40,818 nucleotides of DNA from Verrucomicrobiota bacterium (GTDB lineage: Bacteria > Auribacterota > JABMQX01 > JAFGEW01): assembly GCA_016931415.1 (NCBI GenBank), contig JAFGEW010000049.1, positions 1 through 40,818 on the forward strand, read 5' to 3'. How positions within the stretch are numbered: the first letter of the stretch is position 1; each line of letters opens with the position of its first letter. This document shows positions 12,626 to 28,140 of this stretch, piece by piece. The notes beneath the pieces are model-generated. The model saw only the letters and a list, made by a program, of their open reading frames with translations, did not search any database and had not been told where the DNA came from. The position numbers and the translations under genes were made by a program.

Positions 12626-13354
12626 ATGAAGCGGTCAGGCTTCACGTTGATCGAACTCCTTGTCGTGATCGCTGTCATCGCGATCTTGGCCGCCATGCTG
12701 TTGCCGGCCCTCCAGTCGGCCCGCGAGCAGGCGGCTACCGCCCACTGCGCCAACAACATGAAGCAGTGCCAGATCGCCTACGAGATGTACCGGCAGAACA
12801 ACGATGACCATGCGCCGTTTGCCGAGCAAGGGCAGTACGTGGTGCTGTACCACCTGCTCTATCCGTATGCCGACAACAAGGACGTTTTTGCCTGCACGGC
12901 CACCCCGTCCGAGCTCAACTCCTTCGATCCGGATGTCAAGATGCACTGGACCGATCCGGTGTCGATCGGCATCAACAACTGGGGATGGTGCAATGAGGAC
13001 TTCCCGGGGCTCGGGTGCTGCTCCGTGTTCTGGGGCGACTCCAGGACAGCGACGCAGATGAATGAGGTCGACGACGGCTCCAAGCTGATCGTCTGGGGAG
13101 ACACCCTGCCCGATCGCGACTGGGACTACACGATCGATCCCGGCACGAGCTACAACGACAACGAGCGGCCGTATCCGCGCCACGGCGCGCGGTCCGCGGA
13201 CAAGGGCTATGCCGGACTGCAGAAGGGGACATGGGTCAATATCGTCTGGTTTGACGGTCATTACAGCAAGCACACCCAGCAGTGGCTCATCGACGCCAAG
13301 TTCAATCCGGAGATCAGAGGATTCTGGCGGCGCAACGGGAAGACGGCGCTCTGA
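12626..13354 (+). CDS. H-X9-DG-type pseudopilin A1
   Basis: The 242-residue protein opens with a class III (type IV pilin-like) signal, [14 protein letters not shown], with the prepilin peptidase site after Gly5 and Glu+5 conserved. It then has a long hydrophobic helix. CANNMKQ (CxNN) follows the helix, and DVFACTA gives the second conserved Cys. The middle carries NNWGW and DWDYTIDP, shared with A2 and A3. The His-to-DG motif near the C-terminus is stretched (RHG to WFDGH, about 20 residues instead of nine). It ends FWRRNG, similar to the LWRR ends of A2 and A3. GGGAGAG is 5 nt upstream. It is expected to be exported and assembled or anchored by a type II secretion or type IV pilus machine encoded elsewhere. 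It is paired with the ribbon gene 23 nt downstream. Confidence 0.88.
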
Positions 13355-13377
13355 GCCGGGGTGACGGAGGCAACGTC

Positions 13378-13788
13378 ATGAGTTTCGCCAAGTCTCCTCT
13401 CATGGGGGTAATTGCTGTCGCTGTCATCATAGGGGCATTCTTTGTCATCAGGAGCTGTGGCAGCTCTCCCGAAGCTGGGCTGCGGAGGGTCGTCGGCAAC
13501 CAGCATTGCCTGGCGTGCGGCCATGAGTGGCATATGGACACCAAGGCGATGATGGAGCAGGCGCGCAACGATCCCACGGGAAACCGCTTCACCCAGTGTC
13601 CCAAGTGCGAGGCGTGGCGCGGCGTCGGTATGGGCGTCTGCGCCAAGTGCGGCAAGCCCATCCCGAAGGTCATCGCCTACGAAGAGGCGGACGGCACAGT
13701 AGCCACGGCCCAGCGTAAGTTCTGCGATGAGTGTGCGGCCGAGTTACGGGGTGCGGAACCTGAAAACGAGGAGGCGCACGAGGAGTAG
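13378..13788 (+). CDS. Membrane-anchored four-CxxC zinc-ribbon protein A1
   Basis: The 136-residue protein has one N-terminal membrane helix (about 8-25) and then four CxxC pairs: CLACGHEW, CPKC, CAKCGK and CDEC. These fit two zinc ribbons separated by a beta-rich link, VIAYEEADGT. The tail is acidic. GGAGG precedes the ATG by 7 nt. It lies 23 nt after pseudopilin A1, and the same order is seen in all six units, so co-transcription and joint function are likely. I do not recognise a named family. Possible roles, all inferred, are a metal or thiol partner of the pilin, or an adaptor between pilin and export machine. The topology is not settled by flanking charges. Confidence 0.8.
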   Translation: MSFAKSPLMGVIAVAVIIGAFFVIRSCGSSPEAGLRRVVGNQHCLACGHEWHMDTKAMMEQARNDPTGNRFTQCPKCEAWRGVGMGVCAKCGKPIPKVIAYEEADGTVATAQRKFCDECAAELRGAEPENEEAHEE

Positions 13789-13809
13789 GGGAACACCCAC
13801 CCGGCATCC

Positions 13810-13828
13810 GTCCGCCATGTTGGCGGAC
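13810..13828. terminator. Hairpin after the A1 unit, possible terminator
   Basis: A perfect 8-bp stem, GTCCGCCA (13810-13817) with TGGCGGAC (13821-13828), has a 3-nt loop and begins 22 bp after the ribbon A1 stop. No T-tract follows directly, so it may be an RNA-stabilising hairpin instead. Confidence 0.4.
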
Positions 13829-13953
13829 ATGGGTCTTCCAGGAAGAGCCATTCGACCTGCTAACGATCAACATGTGGGGTGGAGGTCCTACCTCCTGTGC
13901 CCTGTCTGTCTCTTGCCTCAGTGATCCGGTGACGCTTCTGCAAGTTTTTTCCC

Positions 13954-13982
13954 TTGCCAGTGCCCATGTGTGCAGGTATTAG
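13954..13982 (+). promoter_or_regulatory. Putative promoter of the A2 unit
   Basis: TTGCCA (13954-13959, 5/6), a 17-nt spacer and TATTAG (13977-13982, 4/6) lie about 75 bp upstream of pseudopilin A2. With the hairpin after A1, this suggests each unit is its own transcription unit. Confidence 0.45.
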
Positions 13983-14058
13983 TCCTAGTAGGACTTGACC
14001 ACCCCTCGGTCGAGTGTCCGGTCTGAGCTACCAGTTACAGACTGGGAAAGGGTTGCCG

Positions 14059-14769
14059 ATGAACCGTCATGCGTTCACGCTCATCGAGTTGCTCGTCGTC
14101 ATCGCCGTGATCGCGATCCTCGCCGCCCTCCTGCTGCCGGCCCTCCAGTCGGCCCGCGAGAAGGCCCGGGAGATGAACTGCTGGAACAACTACAACCAGC
14201 TCGGCAAAGCGCTCCAGCAGTACTTCAACACGTACGACGGTTGGGCGCCTTTCAGCCAGGGCGGTGTATGGCCCTATGCCGTCGGCTCGTGCCCCTGGGT
14301 GCTGCAGTTATTCCCCTTCGCTATGGACAAGGGCGTGTTCTGGTGTCCTAGCTCCGAACCAGAGCTGCAGTGGGACGGCAAGAGCACGGTGTGGTGGAAC
14401 ACTTGGTTCTCAATGAGCATCAACGACTGGGGCTGGGGCGACTCCGACTACCCCGGCCAAGGTCTTGCCGGCGTGATGAACCCAAACGAGAAGAATACAT
14501 GGGTAAACGAGGCGGATATCGTCAACCCCTCCGAGTTCATCGGCTTGGGCGACAGCGTCATCAACGGCGATTGGGACTGCGTGATCGACCCCGCCAGCAG
14601 CGACTGGGGTGAGCGGCCCGATATCCGTCACGGCCCGGGCGGCACGGTGCTCTTCGTTGACACACACGTTGAGAAGTATCGGCCGCTCCCGAACAATGGC
14701 GCCTCCAACCTCAACGAAAAAAAACGGTCCAGCCACCTCTGGCGCAGGTCAAACGAGACGAAGCCATGA
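14059..14769 (+). CDS. H-X9-DG-type pseudopilin A2
   Basis: The 236-residue protein begins [14 protein letters not shown], a prepilin signal with the small residue before the cleavage site being Ala rather than Gly, then the long hydrophobic helix. The conserved CWNNYNQ and GVFWCPSS cysteines are present, as are NDWGWGD and [22 protein letters not shown] is the H-X9-D motif, with Thr replacing the final Gly. It ends HLWRRSN. It is about the size of A1 and A3 and shares their order of motifs, so the three arose by duplication. AAAGGG lies 6 nt upstream of the ATG. Its stop overlaps the ribbon A2 start by 4 nt (ATGA), direct evidence of translational coupling of pilin and ribbon. Confidence 0.88.
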
Positions 14770-15170
14770 ACCGGTCGGCCGTCATAGTCCTGGTCTGTAT
14801 TCTTGCCATCGCCGGTTCGGCCGCTTGGCTGACGCTGCGTCCGGAGTCGCCGGCGGCCAAGGCCAAAGCGGAGGCCGAACGGCGCAAGTGCTTCGAATGC
14901 GGCCACGAGTGGAGCAAGAGTCGCCGCGCCCTTATTCTCGAATCGAAGAGCGCGCCTCCCGGCTCCGGAGCATTCGTCCAGTGTCCCAAGTGCAAGGCTT
15001 GGGCGGGCATGCCCGTCCTGCACTGCGAGCAGTGCGGCAAGAACTTCACCTCCCACGTGATCGTCGAGGAAGAGGACGGCACGCTCAGCTTCCCCAAGCA
15101 GCGCATCTGTCCTTACTGCCGCACGCCCCTGGGCGAAACTGCCAGCGAGGATGCGCCGGGAACAGAGTAA
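14766..15170 (+). CDS. Membrane-anchored four-CxxC zinc-ribbon protein A2
   Basis: The 134-residue protein has an N-terminal membrane helix (about 4-22), a short Ala/Lys/Glu-rich stalk and four CxxC pairs: [21 protein letters not shown] and CPYC. The spacing and the middle segment [15 protein letters not shown] match A1 and A3 closely. The start overlaps the end of pseudopilin A2 by four bases, the tightest coupling among the six units. No enzyme motif is visible beyond the cysteine pairs. It is a member of the same unnamed ribbon family. Confidence 0.82.
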
Positions 15171-15209
15171 CGGCATCCCCGGCTCGCTCGCACTCCGGAC
15201 GATCGTGCA

Positions 15210-15239
15210 TTGCCTCTCATGCACGGGCCATGATATCCT
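15210..15239 (+). promoter_or_regulatory. Possible promoter of the A3 unit
   Basis: TTGCCT (15210-15215), an 18-nt spacer and TATCCT (15234-15239) each match consensus at 4/6 and lie about 70 bp upstream of pseudopilin A3, at a similar distance to the A2 candidate. Confidence 0.35.
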
Positions 15240-15308
15240 CCAACTCGGTGATGCGAGTCAGAGTGCTTGTCTGTCTGGCCCTCGGCGCCGCGCGGGAGTG
15301 CACAGCCG

Positions 15309-15989
15309 ATGAAACGGTCCGGGTTCACTCTTATCGAGCTTCTCGTCGTGATTGCGGTGATCGCCATCCTGGCGGCGCTGCTGCTCCCCGCGCTCCAGTC
15401 GGCCAAGCAGCGGGCGCGCACGACGTTCTGCGCCAACAACCTGCGCCAGCTCCTGCTGGCCTACGAGAGTTACCGCAACGCGAACGACGGTTGGGCGCCC
15501 TACAGCGAGCGCTGGAATGGCGGGTCGGCCGAACGGCCGTACTACAGCCAGCTCCACAAGTACGCTGATGATGCCGATCTGTTCTGGTGCCCGGAGGCCG
15601 ATCCGGCCACGCAGTGGGACCCGAGCAAGGTCCTTGTGTCTACCACGATGGTCTCCTACGGTGCCAACAACTGGGGCTGGACCGATGAGGACCGCCAAGG
15701 CTGCCTCAGCGTCGTCTACCGGCTCCCCGACACCTACACCGACATGCGCGACGTCGTCAACGGCTGCGAGCTGATCGTCTTCGGCGATGGCACGCCCATG
15801 GGCTCGTGGGACGCCAGCCTCGATCCCTCGCCTGGCGAGCCGTGGCCGTTCGAGAAGCCTTCCGACCGCCACACGGGCATGTGCAACGTTGTGTTCTTCG
15901 ATGGCCACGCAGCGAGCTACAGCCGGACGTTCCTTACGGACCGGAAACTGGCAAGCCACCTGTGGCGCCGGTGCAATACCCCATACTGA
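15309..15989 (+). CDS. H-X9-DG-type pseudopilin A3
   Basis: The 226-residue protein starts [14 protein letters not shown] with the prepilin cleavage site after Gly5. CANNLRQ follows the helix, and DLFWCPEA gives the second Cys. NNWGWTDED and the aspartate-rich WDASLDP are shared with A1 and A2. [14 protein letters not shown] is a perfect H-X9-DG motif. The end HLWRRCN matches A2. I chose the ATG at 15309 because it begins the signal; an in-frame start 42 bp upstream would add residues that break it. Ribbon A3 begins 8 nt after its stop. It is predicted to be processed by a prepilin peptidase and held in or beyond the inner membrane. Confidence 0.88.
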
Positions 15990-15997
15990 GGTCAGCC

Positions 15998-16399
15998 GTG
16001 GCCCGCTCTGTCTTCATCATCATCGTCTGCATCGCGGCAATCGCCGGGTCGGCGTTCTACTACTTCAGCCGTCCCCAGTCGGCCGCCGAGCGCGAGCGCG
16101 ATATGGCCGGATGGCGCATCTGTGCCGAGTGCGGCCGCGAGTGGCACATGACGATGGCCCACATCGCCGCGCAGATGGAGCAGAATCCGGACGGGATCGG
16201 CGCCGTCCAATGCCCCAACTGCCACGCTTGGCGCGGGATGGTGCGGGCCGAATGCCCCAAGTGTCACAAGTCCTTCCCGCGCCTCGTGGCTGTCGAGACG
16301 GACGACGGCCTCAGCCTGGAGAAGCAGACCCTGTGTCCCCACTGCGGCTGTGTCTTCGGCGAGGCGGAAACGGCCGGAAACGGCCCCGCGGATCAGTAG
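15998..16399 (+). CDS. Membrane-anchored four-CxxC zinc-ribbon protein A3
   Basis: The 133-residue protein starts at GTG 15998 with GAGG 6 nt upstream, 8 nt after pseudopilin A3. An N-terminal membrane helix (about 4-22) is followed by CAECGREW, CPNCHAW, CPKCHK and CPHCGC, the same four-pair layout as A1 and A2. The frame is open further upstream, inside the pilin gene, but that stretch is a shadow of the pilin. The last pair of the A unit series lies 117 bp before kdsA. Confidence 0.8.
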   Translation: MARSVFIIIVCIAAIAGSAFYYFSRPQSAAERERDMAGWRICAECGREWHMTMAHIAAQMEQNPDGIGAVQCPNCHAWRGMVRAECPKCHKSFPRLVAVETDDGLSLEKQTLCPHCGCVFGEAETAGNGPADQ

Positions 16400-17564: not shown

Positions 17565-18893
17565 TCAGGCACGTCTGAGTCTGGCCAAGAGGAGCAATCC
17601 GCCGGCGGCGAGCAGCACAAGGGTGCTTGGCTCAGGCACTGGAGTCATGCAGTTGCCGTAGACGTACCGGGCCAACTCCTGTCCACCCATCAAGCCCTCT
17701 TCGTTGCTGAACTGGAAGTGGATACCGCCCCAGATGCGGCTTATCCCGGCTTCCTCGGCTGCCTCCCAGAAGCTGCTGTAGGTTCGGGGACCCAGTTCAG
17801 GATTCATCATCGAGGTCAGTTCGAACGTGTAGTTCCCACTGCCGAAATAGAGCTCGAGCAGGGCAGCCGCGCTGCCTGAGGTGAAGCTGTGGCCGCTGAC
17901 ATACTCGGGGAAGGCCGGCGAGGCGATAAGCGATTCCCACGTCGGGTCGCCCACGGTCGTGCCGTTCGTGTCTTCGTCGCCGAGATGAATGGCCGTCTCC
18001 GGACGCCAGAAGTTGTGCGAGTACTTCATGTCCCACACCGCGATATTCGAGTCAGCTATGGTCACGCTCAGCAGCGCGAACAGGTGAGCGTTCTCGACCA
18101 GCGAGAGTCCCTCACGCTGCGAGATGTCTCTGGCCAGGCCATGCCAGTGGCGGGGCACGTGCTCCATCCAGAAAATGGCTGTGTCAGTCTGATCCTGATC
18201 CCGGAGTGCGGAGTCCGCGGCGCCCCAGAGTCGGGTCTCTTCGTAGCAGAGGGCATACTCTTCGCTGGTCAGGGGCGGCGGACCTCCCTGGTCGAACTGG
18301 CTTCCGCTGGCCATGGCCCAGGGCGTCACGCTGCCCCAGCCCGGCGCCATGGGCTCGCCGGATGCGGTGCGGCGCCATTCGCCCGGTTCCGTGCCGTCCG
18401 GGTGCGGCGTCGTCATCGCAGCCATGGCGCCATCCGTGGACCGCAGCCCGAGGATCGACAGTCCGACGCTCTGACCGAAGGCAATGCCTTCGGTCTTGGC
18501 TGCGCCGTCGGGGATTAGGGCAAGGTGGCTCTCGTAGCGGGCCTGAAGGGTTGCCTGGTGGGCCGGGGCGGTGAAGATGGAGGACAAGACCGTGTACGCC
18601 GCCGCTGTCGCCGCCGCGTCCCGCGAGGCGCCTGACGGGGGAGCCGCCGTCACGTAGTAGGGCGTGTAGCCGCCGTCAAAGGCCACAATCGAGTCGTACA
18701 TGGCGGTGTGGACCATGGCCAGGGTGCGGCCGCCCAAGATGGTGCCCTGGCTGGGGTTGAGCATCAGGGTCGTCTGGTTCCAGTCGGTCACGAAGTCGGC
18801 CCAGGCCCCGCCGGCCAGCGCGACACTCAGCACGGACAAGAGCATAACGAGCCTGACCAGGAACCTGTGCTGGTCAACTTGCAGAGTTCTCAT
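17565..18893 (-). CDS. Vanadium-dependent haloperoxidase-like protein with PEP-CTERM anchor
   Basis: The 442-residue protein has an N-terminal signal peptide (about 12-32, cut near AGGAWA). The body is of the vanadium haloperoxidase/acid phosphatase (PAP2) superfamily. All vanadate-site residues expected from fungal chloroperoxidase are present with the right spacing: Lys290 and Arg297 in KYSHNFWRP, Ser333-Gly334-His335 in YVSGHSF, and Arg386 and His392 in RIWGGIH. The C-terminus PVPEPSTLVLLAAGG plus LARLRRA is a PEP-CTERM sorting signal, predicting exosortase-dependent surface placement. Known members oxidise halides with H2O2, but some homologues are phosphatases, so the reaction is inferred. 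It stands alone on the minus strand. Confidence 0.88.
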   Translation of the reverse strand: MRTLQVDQHRFLVRLVMLLSVLSVALAGGAWADFVTDWNQTTLMLNPSQGTILGGRTLAMVHTAMYDSIVAFDGGYTPYYVTAAPPSGASRDAAATAAAYTVLSSIFTAPAHQATLQARYESHLALIPDGAAKTEGIAFGQSVGLSILGLRSTDGAMAAMTTPHPDGTEPGEWRRTASGEPMAPGWGSVTPWAMASGSQFDQGGPPPLTSEEYALCYEETRLWGAADSALRDQDQTDTAIFWMEHVPRHWHGLARDISQREGLSLVENAHLFALLSVTIADSNIAVWDMKYSHNFWRPETAIHLGDEDTNGTTVGDPTWESLIASPAFPEYVSGHSFTSGSAAALLELYFGSGNYTFELTSMMNPELGPRTYSSFWEAAEEAGISRIWGGIHFQFSNEEGLMGGQELARYVYGNCMTPVPEPSTLVLLAAGGLLLLARLRRA

Positions 18894-24332: not shown

Positions 24333-25097
24333 ATGGTGTACCGACGCCTGTCACATAGGCCGAACGCCTTCACGCTGATCGAGCTGCTGGTCGTGATTGC
24401 CGTAATCGCGATTCTGGCGGCGATGCTTTTGCCGGCCATCCAGTCGGCCAAAGAGAGGGCGGTCAAGATCAACTGCTATAACAACCTGGCTCAGATTGTC
24501 CGGGCATCCGAGCAGTACACGACGGAGTTCGAGGGATGGCTCGTTAACTCCCAGGCCGTCACCCGGGCAAGGAGAGCCGGGAAGATCATCGATACCCCGA
24601 ACGCGGGCTGGCCCGACTGCGTCAACGAGCCTGCCGATACCGGCCTCCTGTGGCGCTACTGCCAGAACAAGGACGTCTGGCTTTGTCCGCGCGACCACGG
24701 GTATCGGACATGGGCCGTCGTCCAGGGCGAACCGGGCGAGGGCTATACGTACAGCTACACTCTGAGCGGGACTGTGATGCCGCTCACGGGCACGGTTCCC
24801 TCCTGGAAAGCAAGCCACAACTACCAGCACGGACGGCACACGGGTACCATTGAGTCGCCTGAGACGCTCATCTACTTTGCCGAGGAGAACACCGACGCGA
24901 ATGCCAAGCCCCCCGTGGGTACGCGCCATGTCATCTACGAGGCGGGCCTCTCCACTGCAGACTACACCGGCAACTGCCACCAGTTGCGTGCGGTGGTCAA
25001 CTATGTTGACGGTCACGTGGGCGAGATAGACGCCTTCGAAGTCTGGATGCACAGCAAGCTGTTTCGGAGTGAGCCGACCGAGCAATGCAGTGAATAG
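24333..25097 (+). CDS. H-X9-DG-type pseudopilin B1
   Basis: The 254-residue protein has a slightly longer leader ([12 protein letters not shown]) before FTLIELLVV and the pilin helix. CYNNLAQ and DVWLCPRD supply the two conserved cysteines. The middle, [28 protein letters not shown] and [11 protein letters not shown], is typical of the B subfamily and differs from the A pilins. [14 protein letters not shown] is an H-X9-DG motif. SD AGGGGG lies 8 nt upstream. The prepilin peptidase would cut after Ala12. B1 is the most divergent and probably oldest of the three B pilins and has an intact partner 38 nt downstream. Confidence 0.87.
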
Positions 25098-25135
25098 CAT
25101 CGCTCGACAAAACGCCGGAGGCAGGAGGGTCGCGG

Positions 25136-25522
25136 GTGAAAGCCAGAGCCGTTGGTCAATTGGCCGTTGTCGTCGTGCTGATCGGTGTGGCCGTCTGGTT
25201 GTTCGCCCGCCATCTCACGGCCAAGCCCGTTTCAGAACAGGTTCCAGTCCGTTGCGTGGTGTGCGGCCATGAGTACGTGCCGGAAGGGACCGAGGACGAC
25301 CCGGAGTGTCCGAAGTGTCATGCCCGAGGCGGACTGCAGCGCGTCTACTATCACTGCAACGAGTGTGGCACGACCTTCCTCGCGTATGAGGAGGATCCCA
25401 GGCAGGGGCTGATCCGCGAGCCGGGCGGCGAGTGGACGACGACGGCGGCGTGGATTCCTACTGAGCCGCAATGCCCCAAGTGCTCGTCCACGAACACCGT
25501 GTTCGTGAAGAATCCGAAGTAG
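25136..25522 (+). CDS. Membrane-anchored four-CxxC zinc-ribbon protein B1
   Basis: The 128-residue protein starts at GTG 25136, with GCAGGAGGG 5 nt upstream. One N-terminal membrane helix (about 7-24) precedes CVVCGHEY, CPKCHA, CNECGTTF and CPKCSS. Compared with the A ribbons the second and third pairs are nearer each other, and the third and fourth pairs are separated by a conserved REPGGEW segment that recurs as RRPGGEW in B2. This defines the B ribbon subfamily. It is the second gene of the B1 unit. Confidence 0.8.
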   Translation: MKARAVGQLAVVVVLIGVAVWLFARHLTAKPVSEQVPVRCVVCGHEYVPEGTEDDPECPKCHARGGLQRVYYHCNECGTTFLAYEEDPRQGLIREPGGEWTTTAAWIPTEPQCPKCSSTNTVFVKNPK

Positions 25523-25723
25523 TCGGTCCATCGAGGCCGGGCGCGAGCAGTTGGCTGTCAGCAGTGGATGGCGAATCCAGGATGGCATTGCTTTCCTCTG
25601 AGAGAGCTGTCCCCCTCAAACTGGCTCCGCCCCTGCACATCTCCCCTTACACGGCTACCCCAATCCGTGCTATCTTCTGATCGAGTCAGTCCGCGGTAGT
25701 CGCCGTTTGGGAGGACGTGTCCA

Positions 25724-26408
25724 GTGCGTCATCGGAGCAGCGGCTTCACACTGATCGAGCTGCTGGTGGTCATCGCCGTGATCGCGATTCTGCCCGCCCT
25801 TCTGTTGCCGGCGATCCAGTCGGCCCGGGAGCGGGCGCTCAAGCTCAACTGCAAGAACAACCTGCACGAGATCGGCATCGCCGCCGCCGGATACACGCTG
25901 GAGTTTGACGGGTGGCTGATCGGCGGAAAGGGTATTTCGGCCCATGGCCAGCAGGTCGGCTACTCGAACGAATCGCCGCAAACGGGGCTCCTCTGGAGGT
26001 TCTATCAGAACGCCGCCATCTTTCTCTGTCCGCGTGACGACCGCAAGCCGGGCACGTTCACGTGGAGTTACGTGCTCAACTGCAGCACCCAGTACTGCAT
26101 CGGATACGGCATCGATTACGGCGTGATCAGCGCCTATTGCCGGCACGGGCGGAACATCGCCGATATCGAGTACCCGGAGGAGGTTATCTACCTCGTCGAG
26201 GAGAACACGGACGCTACGCTGCGCGGACCGAAGGGCGATCGCCACACGATCGACGATTTCTACTTCGCGCGCGTACGACTACGTCGGCTCGCGCCACGCC
26301 GGATTCAACGCGGTCTCCTACCTCGACGGCCACGTCGGCGAGGTCGGCACGGGGCTCGACTTCACGTGCGACGAGTTCCAGAAGGGTGGCCAGTACTGGA
26401 CGTGGTAG
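25724..26408 (+). pseudogene. Pseudopilin B2, interrupted by a one-base frameshift
   Basis: From GTG 25724 (GGGAGGA 8 nt upstream) the frame encodes the prepilin signal [11 protein letters not shown], the helix, [30 protein letters not shown] and [13 protein letters not shown]. In the run GCGCGCG at 26267-26273 one base too many shifts the frame. The next frame continues as [21 protein letters not shown] with the H-X9-DG motif and ends QKGGQYWTW with TAG at 26406-26408, exactly like B3. Without the extra base the product would be 227 residues, against 228 for B3. No other lesion is seen, so this is either a very recent mutation, a slippage site or a sequencing error. The unshifted frame runs on to 26467 with unrelated residues. 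Confidence 0.85.
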
Positions 26409-26463
26409 CGCCGGTCGCCCCTTGCGTTCGAGCCCCATTGGACTTCGGAGAGGGTTGGCATTC

Positions 26464-26862
26464 GTGAAAGGAAGGTCCATAGCCCGTGTGATGCTCGTTG
26501 TTGTGCTCCTCGCCGGTGCGGCATGGTTGTGGATGCGCCATGAGCGGGCCAAGAGGCCCGGGGTCGAGGCCCGGCCCGTGCGCTGCGAGGCGTGTGGCGG
26601 CGAGTATATCCCCAGGACAGGAGCCCCCGACGAACCCTGCCCCCAGTGCGGGGGCACCAAGCATGTGGTCGTCATGTGGTACCGCTGTCGTGACTGCGGC
26701 CATACGTGGATCGGCTTCGAGCAGCAGTCGGACACCGGCTTGTTCCGAAGGCCCGGTGGCGAGTGGGTGGGCGCCGCCGAGTTCGATCCGACGCAGACCT
26801 GCCCGGAATGCGGCTCGACGCGGGCCAGCTCCATCCTTCGGCCGAGCGCTCAGGGGGAATAG
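26464..26862 (+). CDS. Membrane-anchored four-CxxC zinc-ribbon protein B2
   Basis: The 132-residue protein starts at GTG 26464 with GGAGAGGG about 10 nt upstream. An N-terminal membrane helix (about 6-23) is followed by a basic patch, [10 protein letters not shown], then [22 protein letters not shown] and [24 protein letters not shown] links the third and fourth pairs. All eight cysteines are intact although the upstream pilin B2 is frameshifted. It is the closest relative of the decayed ribbon B3. Confidence 0.8.
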
Positions 26863-27001
26863 CACGGCCGCCGGGCCCGGCTTCGTCCACGGACAGGGCG
26901 TGCAGGTTCTGAGCCCGGCCCCGCTCGGTCTGACTGACGACCTGGGCAACCGTGACACCCAGGCGGGTCGTCGTCGCGGTTCGAGCCGAACGGAGGATTC
27001 C

Positions 27002-27688
27002 ATGAAGAGCCCACGGGGTCGCGGTTTCACGCTGATCGAGTTGCTGGTGGTCATCGCCGTGATCGCGATCCTGGCAGCGTTTCTGCTGCCGGCGATCCAG
27101 GCGGCCAAGGAGAAGGCGGTCAAGCTCAACTGCAGAAACAACCTGCAGCAGGTCAACTTGGCCGCCGCGGGGTACGCGACCCAGAACGACGGCTGGCTCG
27201 TCGGCGGCAAGGCCATCTCAGCTCACGGTCACATCGGCGGCTACTCGAGCGAGTCTCCCAAGACCGGTCTGCTCTGGGAGTACTACGGCGACGCCGATCT
27301 CTTCCTATGCCCCCGCGACGACCGGCGAGATGGTACCTACACGTGGAGCTACGTGCTCAACTGCAGCACCCAGTACTGCCAGGGCTACGTGATCGACTAC
27401 GGGGCAATCAGTGCCTATTGCCAGCACGGGCGGAACCTGTCCGAGTTCGAGCACGAGGACGAGGTCATCTACTTCGTCGAGGAGAACACGGACATCACGT
27501 TGCGCGGCCCAAGAGGCATGTACAATACGATCAACGACTTCTATCTCGGTGCGTACGACTACACAGGCGCGCGCCATCTCGGGTTCAATGTGGTCGCCTA
27601 CCTCGACGGCCACATCGGCGAGGTCGGTGCGGGTCTCGATTTCCCGATGGACGTGTTCCAGAAGGGGAGTCAGTACTGGACGTGGTAG
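27002..27688 (+). CDS. H-X9-DG-type pseudopilin B3
   Basis: The 228-residue protein begins [17 protein letters not shown] with the cleavage site after Gly8. CRNNLQQ and [10 protein letters not shown] supply the conserved cysteines. Long stretches match B2 nearly residue for residue, for example [23 protein letters not shown] and the end [23 protein letters not shown] is a perfect H-X9-DG motif. GGAGG lies 5 nt upstream of the ATG. It appears intact, while its partner ribbon gene downstream is degenerate, so if pilin and ribbon work together B3 must use another ribbon, most likely B2. Confidence 0.88.
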
Positions 27689-27766
27689 CGGCGTATCGCC
27701 GCCGCGTTTCGGGCGCCGAGGTGACCGGGCCGCGCATCCGGTGACCGGCGCAGAGAGCTCGACGCC

Positions 27767-28140
27767 GTGAGTGCGAAGCCGATAGCGACGGTGGCGCTGG
27801 CCGTCGTGCCCTTCGGGGGCGCGGGATTGCCCCAGGTCCGCCGTCAACGCGCTGCGAAGCGTTCCGCGCCGGGCACGCGCCTTGACGCGCGATCGCGAGA
27901 AGCTCTGTCCCCAATGTGGCAGCGCCAACCACGTGATCGGCCCGTGGTTCGGTTTCCGTGATTTCGGCCGTAGATGGATCGGCTTCCGCAACAGTCGAAC
28001 GGCCGTTCGCTCAGCAGGCCGGCCGGCGAGTGAATGGGCGTCGCCGACTTCGGTCCAACGCTGACCTGCCTGGAATGCGGATCGAAGGGCCGGCGAGGTG
28101 ACGCGATCAGGCGCCAGCCCGACGCGGAGCCGCTCTCAGG
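27767..28140 (+). pseudogene. Decayed zinc-ribbon gene B3
   Basis: Starting with GTG at 27767 a short hydrophobic segment, AKPIATVALAVVPFGGAG, resembles the membrane helix of ribbon B2. The first CxxC pair is missing. After a frameshift near 27880, REKLCPQCGSANHVIGPWF matches B2, but the third pair CRDC has become FRDF and the next His has become Arg. After a second frameshift near 28020, MGVADFGPTLTCLECGS matches the fourth pair. Loss of cysteines plus two frame changes shows a true pseudogene, not a single read error. The 3' border is approximate. Confidence 0.75.

Follow-up and report, generated by a model that had tools for sequence, protein, structure and literature searches.

Organization of the locus

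The window, by which we mean the whole stretch of DNA that was analysed, is the complete contig C49 (40,818 bp); the draft genome to which it belongs comprises 134 contigs and 4.06 Mb in total. It contains two tandem arrays of three units each, array A (12629–16399) and array B (24333–28100). The unit is made up of two genes, the first for a type IV pilin-like protein and the second for a small protein, here called the ribbon, in which a single N-terminal membrane helix is combined with four CxxC motifs. A fourth B-type pair is located outside the window, on contig C81. Six ribbons are intact, that on C81 and five within the window; they align end to end and share eight invariant cysteines. 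The individual features are as follows.

12629–13354, plus strand: pilin A1, of the first tandem array (genome pilin survey, alignment)
13378–13788, plus strand: ribbon A1, intact (sequence, ribbon alignment)
14059–14769, plus strand: pilin A2 (N_methyl and DUF1559 matches)
14766–15170, plus strand: ribbon A2, intact, with an ATGA overlap with pilin A2 (open reading frame, ribbon alignment)
15312–15989, plus strand: pilin A3 (genome pilin survey, alignment)
15998–16399, plus strand: ribbon A3, intact (sequence, ribbon alignment)
24333–25097, plus strand: pilin B1, intact, 254 aa, with a type IV pilin N-terminus (open reading frame; N_methyl PF07963, 8.6e-8; TIGR02532)
25136–25522, plus strand: ribbon B1, intact, 128 aa, one membrane helix, four CxxC (open reading frame, ribbon alignment)
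25724–26408, plus strand: pilin B2, broken by one extra base at about 26266–26273, with A17P in the N-terminal helix (nucleotide alignment with B1, B3 and C81; survey of residue 17)
26464–26862, plus strand: ribbon B2, intact, 132 aa, eight cysteines, the nearest relative of the remnant (nucleotide and ribbon alignments)
27002–27688, plus strand: pilin B3, intact, 228 aa, 70% identical to B2 (open reading frame; N_methyl PF07963, 1.7e-8)
27767–28100, plus strand: ribbon B3 pseudogene, which retains the GTG start and the helix and has Phe in place of C44, C75 and C78, as well as seven indels and stops (alignments to ribbon B2)

No Rfam family was found at the locus, and scans for promoters and terminators remained at chance level. 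Elsewhere in the window, the minus strand at 17565–18893 encodes a protein with a PEP-CTERM-like C-terminal end (PVPEPSTLVLLAAGGLLLLARLRRA), as judged by eye alone.

Pilins and membrane zinc-ribbons

Pilin B3 matches the prepilin N-terminal motif N_methyl (PF07963) with 34.1 bits at a cut-off of 21.2, and this cut-off is likewise passed by B1 and A2. On DUF1559 (PF07596) pilin B3 reaches 13.9 bits and fails the cut-off of 23.3, which A2 passes with 39.1. The likeness to the N_methyl (PF07963, TIGR02532)/DUF1559 pilin-like proteins lies in N_methyl for B1, B3 and A2, and in DUF1559 also for A2. The B-type pilins differ from DUF1559 proteins in that they stay below the cut-off and possess a C-terminal region of their own with a D-G-H motif. 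Structure prediction for pilin B3 yielded an unusable model (pLDDT 38).

No curated family that describes the whole length of the ribbon was passed at cut-off. Ribbon B2 falls just below the cut-offs of Zn_ribbon_8 (33.4 versus 34.4) and TIGR02605 (FmdB; 30.6 versus 31.3), and it lies just above that of HypA (29.4 versus 28.9 bits) through its zinc knuckles alone (residues 39–69). Its predicted structure (pLDDT 80) displays a single long N-terminal helix (residues 3–29) and few short strands. Comparison of this predicted fold with the PDB gave no match better than E = 1.5, and comparison of the sequence with the PDB retrieved just generic zinc knuckles, namely those in rubredoxins and in ribbons of the ribosome and of RNA polymerase. 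What ribbon B2 has in common with small zinc-ribbons (Zn_ribbon_8/FmdB-type proteins, the HypA zinc site, rubredoxin-like knuckles) are the CxxC/CPxC knuckles, whereas the N-terminal membrane helix, the presence of four CxxC and the position of the gene next to a pilin set the pilin-adjoining ribbons apart. Each ribbon, with its four knuckles, is likely to hold two zinc ions.

A longer form of the ribbon carries six CxxC, with motifs flanking the membrane helix. It is represented by L038 (contig C16 of the same genome), L057 (G001:C339), L058 (G006:C20) and L060 (G019:C51). With such an arrangement, zinc knuckles would lie on either side of the membrane. Two of these ribbons are followed immediately by the start of a pilin gene.

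The remnant of ribbon B3

An earlier note on this DNA had held that the ribbon partner of pilin B3 has decayed while the pilin is intact, and alignment bears this out. The region 27767–28140 and ribbon B2 (26464–26862) align with a local nucleotide score of 134, compared with a mean of 22.4 (SD 2.9, maximum 36) in 500 dinucleotide shuffles, and are 67.8% identical over 363 aligned columns. The homology extends over the full length and is not confined to the cysteine fragments. A search of the whole genome with the ribbon B2 protein retrieves the remnant in two frames (E = 1.9e-8 and 2.1e-5). At the nucleotide level, every other ribbon scores only 20–25 against the remnant; the reverse complement does as well, so that these values are background and ribbon B2 can be identified as the sister. 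The end proposed in the earlier note, 28140, is slightly too far, because homology to ribbon B2 weakens past about 28100.

Relative to ribbon B2 the remnant has accumulated seven indels (deletions of 9, 14, 11, 1 and 1 nt, insertions of 2 and 1 nt), and six frame changes occur along its length. The N-terminal helix is found in frame 0 (VSAKPIATVALAVV...), the first CxxC has become CEAF (27853–27864), CPQC follows in frame 1 (27906–27917), the third CxxC has become FRDF (27954–27965), and CLEC is again in frame 0 (28067–28078). The description given earlier, of helix, CPQC and CLEC fragments in alternating frames with the first CxxC lost and the third turned to FRDF, is hence accurate in all details. 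In terms of codons, Cys44, Cys75 and Cys78 of the ribbon read TTC (Phe) in the remnant, and those of Cys41, 59, 62, 113 and 116 persist in differing frames.

The start and the hydrophobic helix of the remnant are still open in frame 0, and a functional short membrane peptide (64-aa frame, 27767–27961) was therefore considered. However, the 5′ part is as diverged as the rest (64% identity, with mismatches of 4, 10 and 10 at codon positions 1, 2 and 3), and the codon bias of frame 0 is not positive (−0.09). Such a peptide appears extremely improbable and was rejected, as constraint is absent.

Homology above chance, disabling lesions and absence of purifying selection, the marks of a pseudogene, are all present in the remnant. 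The region from 27767 to about 28100 is a pseudogene of the membrane zinc-ribbon gene (132 aa in B2), which underwent duplication along with the adjoining pilin gene.

Selection and relative age of the lesions

Pilins B2 and B3 diverged as constrained genes do. Ahead of the frameshift in B2 they display 44, 29 and 67 mismatches at the three codon positions (of 182 each; dN/dS 0.28, in keeping with constraint on the intact pilin B3), and past the frameshift 10, 5 and 11 (of 46; dN/dS 0.38). Between the remnant and ribbon B2, on the other hand, the mismatches by codon position amount to 29/121, 44/122 and 44/120, with no excess at third positions (chi-square p = 0.15). Third-position divergence is 37% for remnant and ribbon B2 versus 34% for the two pilins (p = 0.72), as is to be expected if both genes were duplicated together, and second-position divergence is 36% versus 15% (Fisher p = 1.2e-5). 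The lack of a third-position excess and the raised second-position divergence, at a third-position divergence equal to that of the pilins, indicate that ribbon B3 lost its constraint early.

Polarisation of first- and second-position changes by B1 assigns 34 to the remnant lineage versus 10 to ribbon B2 (p = 4e-4), and at sites where B1 and C81 agree the counts are 21 versus 6 (p = 0.006). With C81 as sole outgroup the excess is weaker and not significant (30 versus 20, p = 0.20). A rough calculation with a wide range puts the share of the time since duplication that ribbon B3 spent without constraint at 0.82 (95% 0.32 to above 1). Even intact ribbons change faster than pilins (40% versus 60% identical between B1 and C81), so that part of the second-position excess could reflect weak constraint and not its complete absence. 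Gene conversion between the B2 and B3 pilins would also give the pilins a younger look than the ribbons. Close relatives were sought in GTDB r220 with a ribbon profile and a profile of the pilin mid-region, which yielded no confirmed locus; the class comprises two genomes only.

The reverse damage in unit B2

Unit B2 displays the opposite damage, in line with the earlier note. Nucleotide alignment against B1, B3 and C81 places one extra base in pilin B2 at about 26266–26273, after which the open frame continues out of frame to 26467, and the ribbon downstream has all of its eight cysteines. Units B2 and B3 are damaged in opposite members, the lesion in B2 being a single base in a draft genome. 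The shifted pilin frame ends in GTGA and overlaps the GTG start of ribbon B2 (26464–26467), which resembles the ATGA overlap of the A2 pair (14766–14769). Since the shifted tail is not pilin-like, this overlap is probably a coincidence.

Past the frameshift, the coding bias is +0.61 bits/codon in the old frame versus −0.7 and −1.1 in the other frames, and conserved pilin residues are still present. Amino-acid changes, counted by outgroup, number 15–16 for pilin B2 versus 12–17 for pilin B3, so acceleration of B2 is not apparent. These data indicate that the break in pilin B2 is either recent or an assembly error. If it were an assembly or sequencing error, B2 would be a complete pair and ribbon B3 the only loss. 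Such an error would be in keeping with a single extra base in a CG-rich run, with the fact that coding bias is full and residues are conserved both before and after it, and with the draft state of the genome. However, residue 17 of the mature helix is a proline in pilin B2 (AILPALLLP versus AILAALLLP); this is unique among the pilins surveyed, in a helix that is otherwise very conserved. Moreover, 14 other genes of the window (the coding-bias training set, long conserved genes included) have no internal frameshift, which makes an assembly error at B2 less likely without excluding it. On balance we regard an error at this site as rather unlikely. The A17P exchange itself could mean that constraint had begun to relax, or could mark a functional difference.

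As read from the alignments, the two lesions differ in age, that of ribbon B3 being early and that of pilin B2 recent or a product of misassembly. It would follow that B2 was still complete, and pilin B3 already without a ribbon of its own, during the greater part of the period since the duplication.

Possible partners of pilin B3

The earlier note had proposed a reciprocal decay of B2 and B3 with complementation, in which pilin B3 works with ribbon B2 and one hybrid pair is left from two half-broken units. The intact ribbon in B2 and the intact pilin in B3 would allow for this; no intact ribbon is closer to the lost ribbon B3 than ribbon B2, and the resulting order of ribbon and then pilin occurs naturally elsewhere (contig C16 of the same genome and G001:C339). 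However, an early loss in the remnant and a recent one in pilin B2 are not of comparable age and hence do not amount to a reciprocal loss, and the intact pairs B1, immediately upstream, and C81 could serve pilin B3 equally well. Furthermore, a ribbon or remnant adjoins 9 of the 28 distinct pilin genes of the genome (29 rows in the survey, in which B2 was split in two), and the other 19 have none within a flank of about 1.5 kb; membrane ribbons are also found without an adjoining pilin. Neither a requirement of the pilin for a ribbon nor a shortage of other ribbons is evident. Reciprocal decay as the history of the locus is thus unsupported, and complementation of pilin B3 by ribbon B2 appears unlikely.

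With no ribbon beside the majority of pilins in the genome, there is no need to invoke a rescue for a pilin that stands alone. Pilin B3 may accordingly require no ribbon and act independently, as many lone pilins of this genome may do, and the persistence of its constraint long after the loss of its own ribbon is consistent with this. On the other hand, a ribbon could act in trans, so that its absence nearby proves little, and paired arrangements are conserved in other genera. We consider independence of pilin B3 a real possibility, if somewhat short of an even chance. The alternatives discussed here are not mutually exclusive, as they answer different questions, some about the B2 pilin and some about whether pilin B3 needs a ribbon. 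Pilin B3 could use ribbon B2, ribbon B1 or none.

Probable duplication and degeneration

Ordinary duplication and degeneration of the tandem B2 and B3 units is, in our view, very probably the explanation of the locus. A two-gene unit, encoding a pilin-like protein and a membrane zinc-ribbon with four CxxC, would have undergone tandem duplication, from which B2 and B3 arose. The second ribbon (B3), which would have been redundant, lost its constraint early and has become a pseudogene, and purifying selection was kept on both pilins. The frameshift in pilin B2 would have arisen much later, unless an assembly error is located at that site. Ribbon B3 would have been dispensable, being covered by a neighbouring ribbon (B2, B1 or C81) or, alternatively, superfluous to a pilin that needs none.

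Decay of one member after tandem duplication is already well known. The features of such cases recur here, namely paired tandem copies, one member dead through indels and loss of key residues, and a sister gene under constraint. Nothing at this locus is categorically different; its particularity is that B2 and B3 are damaged in complementary members at different times.

Pairing of pilins with membrane zinc-ribbons

Pilins and membrane ribbons are neighbours on contigs C81, C130 and C16 of the same genome, as well as at G001:C339, G003:C83, G011:C157, G019:C106 and G026:C119. The ribbon directly follows the pilin in G003, G019, G026 and G011, four genomes that belong to another family of the phylum. 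The position of a pilin next to a ribbon is an old arrangement. The membrane ribbons adjoining pilins have four and sometimes six CxxC. Because membrane ribbons stand alone in several genomes, the pairing is frequent and not obligatory. A literature search on pilins with zinc ribbons found no paper that describes the pair. Pairs of a pilin and a membrane ribbon, recurring across genera of the phylum, are apparently undescribed, and this novelty belongs to the loci as a group rather than to the decayed copy.

In an intact unit, the pilin would insert via its N-terminal helix and be processed by prepilin peptidase. The ribbon, as a small membrane-bound zinc protein, would probably assist or regulate the pilin as an adaptor, chaperone or assembly factor. 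It is conceivable, if decidedly improbable, that both form an undescribed two-component module of the phylum, in which ribbons are exchangeable, redundant ones are lost and the survivor serves the pilin of a neighbour.

As a pseudogene the remnant is ordinary. Its value is that of a natural experiment, in which a pilin stayed under selection long after its own ribbon had been lost. It shows that a pilin can outlast its own ribbon, either through ribbons that act in trans or because no ribbon is needed. Beyond this, the remnant points to the repeated association of pilins with membrane zinc-ribbon proteins, which seems not to have been described.
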